Positions 44,657 through 48,137 of a stretch of 64,000 nucleotides of DNA are shown here, in pieces. Both the position numbers and the translations under genes were made by a program. The stretch is from Treponema sp. (GTDB taxonomy: Bacteria; Spirochaetota; Spirochaetia; Treponematales; Breznakiellaceae), in assembly GCA_009781635.1 (NCBI GenBank), contig WQXU01000007.1, positions 1-64,000 on the forward strand, read 5' to 3'. Within the stretch, counting starts at the first letter, position 1. Each line of letters starts with the position of its first letter. Under the pieces are notes generated by a model. It was not told the DNA's origin and did no database searches. It saw only the letters and a list, made by a program, of their open reading frames with translations.

Positions 44657-45355
44657 TCAGGGTACGTCATAAACATCAACGCCTTCTTTTCGTTTCAGGA
44701 AACTGGATACCCAATATGTAAGAGGTGTCATGAGCGCTTCAATTCCGCATTTTAAGATATAATTTGTTATTACAAGCGACCAGAATATTTCCCATCCAAA
44801 AACCCCTGTGATGGTTGCAATAAATACAAAAATAAATGTATCGAGAAGCTGGCCAACCAAAGATGAACTAATGGTTCTCACCCAAAGCATGCGGCCTTTC
44901 ATTTTTACTTTTATTTTAGAAAGTATTGCAGCATTGGAAAACTCGCCGGCAAGGTAGGCAGAAAGGCTTGCAAGCACAATTCCGCCGTAACTCATTCCGC
45001 CAAGGATTGCATTGTATGCATTATTGCCGGCCTCGGCTTCCCAGAAAGCTTCCGGGGGCAATAAGCCAAGAACAAAGAAGACAAGTGTTGTCAGAGCCAT
45101 CACCGCAAACCCTGTCCAGATAACTCTCCGCGCTGTCCGGAATCCGTAAACTTCAGTCAGTACGTCGCCAAGCACATACACCAAAGGAAACAGAATCGTG
45201 CCGCCGTCAAACGCAAGCGGGATAGAAAAAAGCAAAATACCTGTGTCAACAATTTTTGCCGAAGATGCAATATTACTGACAATTAGTATACCGACAAAGA
45301 AGGACGCAACAACATCAAGATATCTGAATGTAGTTGGCTGGGAAGGTGTGTTCAT
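44657..45355 (-). CDS. yhhQ: Queuosine precursor transporter (YhhQ/DUF165 family)
   Basis: A 232-residue membrane protein with 6-7 helices of the YhhQ family, which imports preQ0/preQ1 for queuosine synthesis. The motifs FDGGTILFPLVYVLGDVLTEVYGFR and VGQLLDTFIFVFIA are typical. AAGGAG lies 8 nt before the ATG and falls inside a predicted pseudoknot, so control by its ligand is plausible. Queuosine-synthesis genes are not in the window, as expected for a salvage route. Confidence 0.9.
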   Translation of the reverse strand: MNTPSQPTTFRYLDVVASFFVGILIVSNIASSAKIVDTGILLFSIPLAFDGGTILFPLVYVLGDVLTEVYGFRTARRVIWTGFAVMALTTLVFFVLGLLPPEAFWEAEAGNNAYNAILGGMSYGGIVLASLSAYLAGEFSNAAILSKIKVKMKGRMLWVRTISSSLVGQLLDTFIFVFIATITGVFGWEIFWSLVITNYILKCGIEALMTPLTYWVSSFLKRKEGVDVYDVP

Positions 45356-45365
45356 TTAATATGCT

Positions 45366-45405
45366 CCTTGTTTTAATTCGTAGCAGGTTTTCAAGGTTAC
45401 TGCTA
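45366..45405 (-). promoter_or_regulatory. Candidate preQ1-type riboswitch pseudoknot, gene-proximal copy
   Basis: On the minus strand, TAGCAG (45405-45400) pairs with CTGCTA (45386-45381). In the loop, CCTTG (45396-45392) pairs with CAAGG (45370-45366), across an A-rich linker. CAAGG overlaps the AAGGAG ribosome-binding site of the transporter gene, so folding would block translation. The topology (H-type pseudoknot, A-rich third loop, ribosome-binding site as the last strand) is that of class I preQ1 aptamers. Exact consensus matching could not be run. Confidence 0.5.
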
Positions 45406-45525
45406 TTTCTCCGGGCGCGCTGCTCGGGATAAATCCCTCGCGCATCATCTATCTCGTTTACCTTTGACGTGCGCCACGCCGCGCTGACTTTTTCATCCGC
45501 ACGCATGCGCGTGCTTTCTTGGGCG

Positions 45526-45565
45526 CCTTGTTTTGTTTATTAGCAGGTTTTCAAGGATACTGCTA
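45526..45565 (-). promoter_or_regulatory. Candidate preQ1-type pseudoknot, distal copy
   Basis: The same four strands as in the proximal copy: TAGCAG/CTGCTA (45565-45560, 45546-45541) and CCTTG/CAAGG (45556-45552, 45530-45526). The linker is ATAAACAAAA. This copy follows the glgP stop and has no start codon of its own nearby. Confidence 0.42.
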
Positions 45566-45581
45566 TTTTCCGGGCGCGCTG

Positions 45582-48137
45582 TTAGGCCCATTTAATTAAT
45601 CCGCATCTGTACGGATGTATAAGCGCTTCATGCTTCGGCAGAATACGCACTGTATGTCCCTGCATGCCGGTGTCAACGCATTCAACGCGAACCTGATAAA
45701 GATTCAGGTTGCCTTCGCTTTTCAGCCATTTCATCTCCGCCTTTCTTGCGTCGGTTATATTGCTTGTCTGGCTTGATAAAGCGCCGTGGTAAAGTTCAAC
45801 CTGCAATTCGTTAGTTGAAATGCTGCCAAGATCGAGGTAGGCAATTACATTTAGCGTGTCACCGCGCTGCATTACAGGTTTGGCATTGGATTCAACTTTT
45901 ACAATCTTAAGGCTTCCCCAGGCTTGATGTAATTTGGAAAAATAAGCCGCCAGCGATTTAGCTTCGGCATAATCATCCTTGCTGAACCTGCGGTAATTTT
46001 TAAGGGCCGGAAAATAAAACTGATTCGAATAATCCATCAACATGCGATGACTCGACATAGACTGCCCTATTTCCTTCATGCAGTCTTTCATCATTTTTAT
46101 CCATTCACGCGGCAGCCCGTCGCGTCCCCTGTCATAGAACATCGGAATGATTTCGCGTTCCAGAAGATCGTATAGGGATTTGCTCTCAATATCATCCTGG
46201 AGTTTTTCATCGATGTATTGTTCGCCGTGGCCTATTGCCCAGCCAACTTCGGGATTGTAAGCCTCATCCCACCAGCCGTCCAGGATTGAGCAGTTAAGTA
46301 CGCCGTTCATTGCAGCCTTCATGCCGCTTGTGCCGGACGCTTCCATCGGACGGCGCGGGGTGTTAAGCCACACATCGCCGCCGGAAGTCAGGTATTTTGC
46401 GACATTCATGTCGTAGTTTTCTACAAATACAATACGGTTTGATACATCATATTTCTCTGCAAAATGAATTATATCGCGGATTAAATCCTTGCCGGGCATG
46501 TCGTGCGGATGCGCTTTACCGGCAAAAATTAACTGGATGGGACGGTCGTTATCTCTTACGAGCCGCAGCAAGCGTTCGGGATCGCGCAGGAGCAGATTGC
46601 CGCGTTTATAGGTTGCAAAGCGCCGTGCAAAACAAATAGTCAGCGCGTAAGGAGAAAGAACATCTTCCGCCTGACGGATACGCCTTTCCATGGCGCCGGT
46701 TCTCTTGTATTGTTCACGAACACGTTCGCGCACAAAGGCAACAAGCCTGTCACGGCGGCGCTCATGGGTACGCCATAATTCCTCGTCGGAAATACGATCC
46801 ATCCGTTCCCATATTTTTAATTCTGTCGGCTTATCCTCAAAATGAGGGCCAAAATACCTGTCCAAAAGATTAAGCATACCGGAGGAAATCCAGGTACGCG
46901 GATGAACGCCGTTAGTAACATGACCGATTGGAATTTCATCAAGCGGAAGACCCGGCCATAATCCCTGCCACATTTCGCGTGACACTACGCCGTGGAGCTT
47001 TGCAACGCCATTGGCATAAGCTGCCATCTTAAGCGCAAGAACTGTCATACAGAAAGTTTCCCGCTCATCGTTTGCATCAACCCTGCCAAGACCAAGGAAA
47101 TCCTTCCATGAGATTCCAAGAACCTGCGGCCACGAACGGAAATATTTATCCATCATCGGAATATCAAAACGCTCATTTCCTGCAGGAACAGGCGTATGAG
47201 TAGTAAAGATATTTGACGGCCAGACTGCCTCACGCGCTTCGTCAAAGGTGAAATTTTTCTCGGTCATAATTTCGCGTGTACGTTCAAGGCCGAGGAAGGC
47301 CGCATGGCCTTCGTTCATGTGAGTTGCGGCAGGATTTATCCCAAGTGCACGTAACGCACGGATGCCGCCGATACCCAAGAGAATTTCCTGCTGCATGCGC
47401 GTCTCTTTGTCGCCGCCGTAAAGGGCCGCTGTAATGTTACGGATATCCTGCGTATTTTCTTCGATATTTGTATCCAGCAAAAATAATGATGAACGCCCGA
47501 CTTTTACTTCCCAAATTTGAGCAATAGCCTGCCGTCCCGCCAAATCCACAGTTATTTTTAACGGCTGCCCGTCTTTGCCGTTTCTTCTTTCTACCGGCAT
47601 GTTGTACCAGTCATTTTCCGGATAACTTTCCTGCTGGAAGCCATCGGCATTCAGCATTTGTTTAAAGTAACCCTGCCTGTACAGAAACCCGATACCCACA
47701 AGAGGAAGACCAATATCCGAAGATGTTTTCATGTGATCCCCGGAAAGAATTCCAAGACCGCCTGAGTAAATCGGAAGAGAGGCATCCATTCCGTATTCCA
47801 TTGAGAAATACGCTATCACATCCTGAGAGCTTCTGGCCCGATGATTGCTTTTATACCATGTTTCACCTTTTTTATAACGTTGAAACCTCTCATAAATTAC
47901 ATTTAAAGCAGCCAAATAGGAATCATCCTTGGCTGTCTGCGCAAGCCGTTCCTGGCTCACCATACCCAGAGTCCTTATAGGACTTTGCTGCGACCCGAGC
48001 CAGCAATCATAATCCAGCCTGATAAAAAGCTGAACCGCGTCATAATTCCAGGATAACCAGAGATTGCGGGCAATCTCTTCCAATGGCTTCAAAACTAATG
48101 GAAGTTTTGGCTTAACTGTATATGTGGATATGTTCAT
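45582..48137 (-). CDS. glgP: Alpha-glucan phosphorylase
   Basis: A pyridoxal-phosphate enzyme releasing glucose-1-phosphate from glycogen or maltodextrins. The 851 residues follow the alpha-glucan phosphorylase type of Thermotoga and many anaerobes. It begins with a short N-terminal DUF3417-like segment (LEEIARNLWLSWNYDA), then GGLGILSGDHMKT, the MNEGHAAF block and the PLP-lysine motif EASGTSGMKAAMNG at about residue 600. There is no ribosome-binding site; a near-consensus promoter ends 6 nt before the ATG. Confidence 0.95.
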   Translation of the reverse strand: MNISTYTVKPKLPLVLKPLEEIARNLWLSWNYDAVQLFIRLDYDCWLGSQQSPIRTLGMVSQERLAQTAKDDSYLAALNVIYERFQRYKKGETWYKSNHRARSSQDVIAYFSMEYGMDASLPIYSGGLGILSGDHMKTSSDIGLPLVGIGFLYRQGYFKQMLNADGFQQESYPENDWYNMPVERRNGKDGQPLKITVDLAGRQAIAQIWEVKVGRSSLFLLDTNIEENTQDIRNITAALYGGDKETRMQQEILLGIGGIRALRALGINPAATHMNEGHAAFLGLERTREIMTEKNFTFDEAREAVWPSNIFTTHTPVPAGNERFDIPMMDKYFRSWPQVLGISWKDFLGLGRVDANDERETFCMTVLALKMAAYANGVAKLHGVVSREMWQGLWPGLPLDEIPIGHVTNGVHPRTWISSGMLNLLDRYFGPHFEDKPTELKIWERMDRISDEELWRTHERRRDRLVAFVRERVREQYKRTGAMERRIRQAEDVLSPYALTICFARRFATYKRGNLLLRDPERLLRLVRDNDRPIQLIFAGKAHPHDMPGKDLIRDIIHFAEKYDVSNRIVFVENYDMNVAKYLTSGGDVWLNTPRRPMEASGTSGMKAAMNGVLNCSILDGWWDEAYNPEVGWAIGHGEQYIDEKLQDDIESKSLYDLLEREIIPMFYDRGRDGLPREWIKMMKDCMKEIGQSMSSHRMLMDYSNQFYFPALKNYRRFSKDDYAEAKSLAAYFSKLHQAWGSLKIVKVESNAKPVMQRGDTLNVIAYLDLGSISTNELQVELYHGALSSQTSNITDARKAEMKWLKSEGNLNLYQVRVECVDTGMQGHTVRILPKHEALIHPYRCGLIKWA

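Follow-up and report, generated by a model that had tools for sequence, protein, structure and literature searches.

The leader of a yhhQ-like gene in Treponema sp. contains two motifs of about 43 nt, which lie on the minus strand upstream of the gene and are spaced 160 nt from start to start. Each motif is very probably a preQ1-I type II aptamer that folds as an H-type pseudoknot and represents a treponeme variant in which 2-3 nt have been added to the loop. This assignment is a prediction from sequence comparison. The DNA analysed was a stretch of 64,000 nucleotides (contig WQXU01000007.1, positions 1 to 64,000), which is referred to as the window.

Organization of the yhhQ leader

The features of the locus are listed in Table 1. 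The product of the yhhQ-like gene matched TIGR00697 with 113 bits (cut-off 51). The closest named relatives of this transporter are from Treponema metagenome-assembled genomes; they are presumably termite-gut treponemes. The original prediction described two repeats spaced 160 bp apart, with the strands TAGCAG/CTGCTA and CCTTG/CAAGG, and an overlap of the proximal CAAGG with the AAGGAG site of a YhhQ-family gene. Both the repeats and the overlap were found on the minus strand. In each copy, the CCTTG in the loop is complementary to the CAAGG in the tail. In the proximal copy, CAAGG continues into AAGGAG, and 8 nt separate the end of this site from the ATG at 45355.

Table 1. Features of the yhhQ leader and its surroundings in the window.
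Feature	Position	Strand	Details
yhhQ-like queuosine precursor transporter, 232 aa	44657..45355	-	TIGR00697 and Pfam Vut_1 PF02592
Predicted proximal aptamer hairpin	45381..45405	-	45405-45381 reads TAGCAG-TAACCTTGAAAAC-CTGCTA; P1 TAGCAG (45405-45400)/CTGCTA (45386-45381); R1 match 45364-45406, E 1.7e-8
Proximal hairpin loop UAACCUUGAAAAC	45399-45387	-	13 nt
Predicted proximal P2 5' strand (anti-Shine-Dalgarno) CCTTG	45392..45396	-	complement of CAAGG 45370-45366
Predicted proximal A-rich L3 and P2 3' strand CAAGG, overlapping Shine-Dalgarno AAGGAG	45364..45380	-	
Predicted distal aptamer hairpin	45541..45565	-	45565-45541 reads TAGCAG-TATCCTTGAAAAC-CTGCTA; P1 TAGCAG/CTGCTA, loop UAUCCUUGAAAAC; R1 match 45524-45566, E 1.6e-9
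Predicted distal A-rich L3 and P2 3' strand CAAGG	45524..45540	-	
63-aa ORF	45315-45506	-	
Alpha-glucan phosphorylase gene	45582-48137		

The two copies are 87% identical over 46 nt and share 37 of 43 motif positions; since they differ, they do not represent a simple assembly duplication. Their stems are identical, as the original prediction had implied in finding no covariation between the copies, and covariation can come from relatives alone. Shuffling gave an expectation of 0.00 per window for the 25-mer pattern with at most 3 mismatches. The minimum-free-energy fold of the leader includes both hairpins. The whole-leader fold was no more stable than the shuffles (z -0.12), a value that is uninformative because pseudoknots are outside the folding model. 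The distal copy is located about 20 nt beyond the stop codon of the alpha-glucan phosphorylase gene. Directly upstream of the proximal copy, the stretch GCGAGGG..TTTA..CCCGAGCAGCGCG occurs at window positions 45416-45441, and L066 has a similar stretch ahead of its motif.

Distribution of the motif

The covariance model R1 was built from the yhhQ leaders of the family. In the 2.77-Mb genome, R1 matched only the two window copies, with 44.5 bits for the distal and 40.9 bits for the proximal one; the next match had an E-value of about 1. Across 200 family genomes, 86 matches were identified in 81 genomes at E<=1e-5. These strong matches precede yhhQ in 85 of the 86 cases (one being a decayed yhhQ), and the remaining match is at the end of a contig. 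No match was obtained in about a third of the family genomes searched. When the window's genus was left out of the model, the distal copy ranked first in the window (E 2.2e-4), and the proximal copy gave a partial match (E 0.026).

R1 also identified compact forms with 10-nt loops in other spirochaete families, such as UCGCAGCAAC, located before distant Vut_1 genes. The Vut_1 proteins at these forms are often 23-46% identical to the window protein. Compact type II-like motifs were also seen in two yhhQ leaders of the Anaerolineae (Chloroflexi), L081 and L085. The former was matched by the model; the latter has a hairpin after P1.

Conservation, covariation and inserted stem-loops

By a strict rule, the motif was found in 54 of the 103 yhhQ leaders examined. 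P1 consists of standard pairs in 100% of cases, and its pairing, together with the conserved U and C, was partly selected, because these features and AAAAC were required at leader extraction; the A of AC was not required. Further copies that were found afterwards by the model have the same features as the extracted set. The 51 distinct aligned copies share an invariant G-U where the P1 5' strand ends, the U lying just past P1, an ACC with which the 3' strand starts, and the tail AAAAC, which leads into the Shine-Dalgarno sequence. All motifs (76/76) have the AC preceding the P1 3' strand.

A comparison of yhhQ leaders for covariation had been proposed as a check, and it showed that P1 covaries in the relatives. 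There were 22 doubly changed cells versus 5.3 in shuffles, and 8 versus 0.9 without the window's genus. The outer pair of P1 occurs as G-C, A-U, C-G, or G-U, and the fourth pair as G-C or A-U. The P2 pairing between the loop and the Shine-Dalgarno region had a mean of 3.42 bp in the 76 motifs, versus 2.82 bp for shuffled loops, and 0 of 1000 shuffles were as high.

Some relatives contain extra stem-loops, which occur only between the P2 strand and AC (L021, L019, L183, and L194) or right after P1 (L146, L175, L185, L177, L178, and L150). The core is kept on both sides of each insertion. Stem-loops at the loop boundaries are a prediction of the pseudoknot model and are hard to square with a protein-binding site. 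A stem-loop is also present in L297, within L2 or L3 of the putative yhhQ-leader aptamer.

Comparison with the preQ1-I subtypes

The preQ1-I subtypes were reportedly defined by McCown in 2014. The criteria used here were taken from more recent papers: the P1 3' strand is preceded by AC in types II and III, and by UC in type I, while UU after the P1 5' strand marks types I and III (PMC11625349, PMC10622847, PMC8752633). With AC and UA, the window copies fit type II best. They also have the H-type pseudoknot, the A-rich L3 leading into P2, and the link to a queuosine gene that characterize type II. The UC of type I was absent from all motifs, and the UU of type III was replaced by UA or UC in 75 of the 76. 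The position of C7 in Tte is A in both window copies; among the 76 motifs, it is A in 49 and C in 26. The ceiling triple C7+-G11-C30 is a feature of the Tte structure, and not of type II as a whole. Because of the longer loop and the A in place of C7, the details of the pocket ceiling must be different. The original prediction likened the distal tail to the Thermoanaerobacter aptamer tail, and a resemblance to the Tte loop sequence is presumed.

The type II aptamers of Bsu and Tte share with the window copies the P1 hairpin, the AC, the A-rich L3, and the Shine-Dalgarno bases that form P2, and the 10-nt loops of the spirochaete relatives are also like those of type II (PMC11625349). However, the treponeme motifs differ from type II in their mostly 12-14 nt loop (13 nt in the window, versus 10 nt in the compact relatives), the extended CCY.G anti-Shine-Dalgarno arm, the A at C7, a score below the Rfam cut-off, the tandem arrangement found here, and the L2/L3 stem-loops of some relatives. 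The type III aptamer of E. coli yhhQ has in common the regulation of yhhQ (predicted here), the AC at the specificity base, and a P2 that sequesters AAGG; its P1 5' strand is followed by UU and its loop is shorter and pyrimidine-rich, whereas the motifs here have UA or UC and a longer loop (PMC10622847). The type I aptamer of Can has the same pseudoknot topology, but its P1 3' strand is preceded by UC and its tail contains CUA, in place of the AC and CAAGG found here (PMC8752633).

Searches with Rfam models

No Rfam family reached its gathering score in the window. The Rfam preQ1 models had been proposed as a check of the original prediction, and here the support failed: in a 1.2-kb stretch around the leader, no match to RF00522 or to the preQ1-II and preQ1-III models was found even at E<=10. 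None of 100 family genomes had a match to RF00522 at its 39-bit gathering cut-off. Sub-threshold RF00522 matches were located on the homologous site in L195 (24.3 bits, E 0.044), L288 (20.0 bits), and L174 (17.2 bits). The L195 match, the best among the site-matched relatives, has the same site and the same register as the motif. Because these matches fall on the homologous site, the Rfam library scores this lineage too low. Weak RF00522 matches in L032, L034, and L035 were considered to be chance, as a quick look showed neither a treponeme-model match nor a queuosine link.

Alternative explanations

The class I preQ1 reading of the original prediction is supported by the yhhQ link, the type II signature, and the P1 covariation, with RF00522 below its cut-off and ligand binding as a prediction. 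The motif might instead be a dispersed repeat or a transcription-factor site, which we consider very improbable. Such an element could account for the flanking sequence GCGCGCCCGG common to both copies and for the lack of an RF00522 match. However, the genome contains only two copies, and the flanking hairpin (GCGAGGG...CCC), tried as a dispersed element, occurs once in it. Scattering at unrelated loci, which the original prediction had named as counter-evidence, was not seen; the motif stands before yhhQ family-wide. The compensatory changes in P1 and the hairpin insertions at loop boundaries indicate an RNA and argue against a transcription-factor site. It is scarcely more probable that the H-type pseudoknot serves another ligand. 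The exclusive link to yhhQ/Vut_1, the type II signature positions, and the intermediates that chain to compact type II-like forms argue for preQ1, although small Shine-Dalgarno-sequestering pseudoknots also exist for other ligands.

The distal copy and the tandem arrangement

The preQ1-I type II reading leaves room for two roles of the distal copy, which may serve as an accessory aptamer within the same transcript, or may be a duplication relic. This copy keeps every conserved aptamer position. It has no well-placed start codon (the nearest ATG is 19 nt after AAGG), and no terminator was called on the minus strand. The 63-aa ORF begins downstream of the distal copy and, in another frame, extends over the yhhQ start; it is probably untranslated. 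As an upstream ORF controlled by the distal copy, it was set aside because of the 19-nt distance of its ATG from AAGG. Tandem riboswitches also have two like aptamers per leader, whereas the distal copy here is without an evident platform of its own (PMC9481103). The 2022 survey of tandem riboswitches counts preQ1-I, -II, and -III among the classes for which no tandem was found (PMC9481103). In no other scanned genome were two copies adjacent with no gene remains in the spacer.

There is about an even chance that the distal copy is a relic, that is, an orphan aptamer that remained when, after a duplication of the riboswitch-yhhQ unit, one of the two genes decayed. In a genome of the same genus (G177, L247; G177:C81:3100-5400), the motif occurs twice at a distance of 666 nt; a decayed yhhQ start follows the first copy, and the second precedes an intact yhhQ. 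This arrangement suggests a possible route, in which the unit was duplicated and one of the two genes was then lost. However, the 135 nt between the window hairpins contain no recognisable yhhQ remnant, and the distal copy still has every conserved position. The two copies might also act jointly, with preQ1 at each copy steepening the repression of yhhQ, as in other tandems for the same ligand; this is rather unlikely. The absence of a well-placed start codon and of a terminator argues against joint action, as does the fact that the arrangement is unique to the window genome among those scanned. The intact conserved positions and the higher R1 score of the distal copy are in its favour, and so is its placement, about 20 nt past the phosphorylase stop, which resembles that of single copies in relatives such as L064. 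Both roles are compatible with the preferred reading of the motifs as preQ1-I type II aptamers. It is equally doubtful that the pair represents the first tandem preQ1-I riboswitch, with two extended-loop aptamers that jointly control yhhQ in a spirochaete subtype missed by current models.

Queuosine salvage and the proposed control of yhhQ

The genome (99.3% complete) contains Tgt and QueA, while QueF and a convincing QueC were absent from it. Two weak QueC matches were rejected, because they are partial and their 61-66 aa stretches better fit the GMP synthase/NAD synthase/LarE and MnmA models. With Tgt and QueA, and without QueC and QueF, the genome must import a queuosine precursor. The imported precursor is most likely preQ1 itself, a vitamin-like tRNA precursor, given the absence of QueF.

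The proximal copy is the putative switch, and would block yhhQ translation at high preQ1. When preQ1, and perhaps also preQ0, is scarce, P2 would be open, leaving AAGGAG free for the ribosome to translate yhhQ. If preQ1 is abundant, it would pair with the C of the AC that precedes the P1 3' strand, and would stack between P1 and P2. In this bound form, the Shine-Dalgarno sequence would be locked in P2, and import would stop.

Implications

In titles and abstracts of the literature, in which few subscription papers are covered, no relevant link of a preQ1 riboswitch to Treponema or the Spirochaetes was found. Any claim of priority is therefore tentative. The predicted aptamers would extend preQ1-I to the Spirochaetota, a phylum missing from the list in a recent review. 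They belong to a variant that the Rfam model missed in every family genome scanned, which suggests that there may be many more such switches below current thresholds. The pair might serve to test the joint action of two preQ1-I aptamers, an arrangement absent from the 2022 survey. Natural forms in which the anti-Shine-Dalgarno arm is longer, and those in which stem-loops are inserted at the loop boundaries, might be helpful for finding the essential parts of a very small aptamer.
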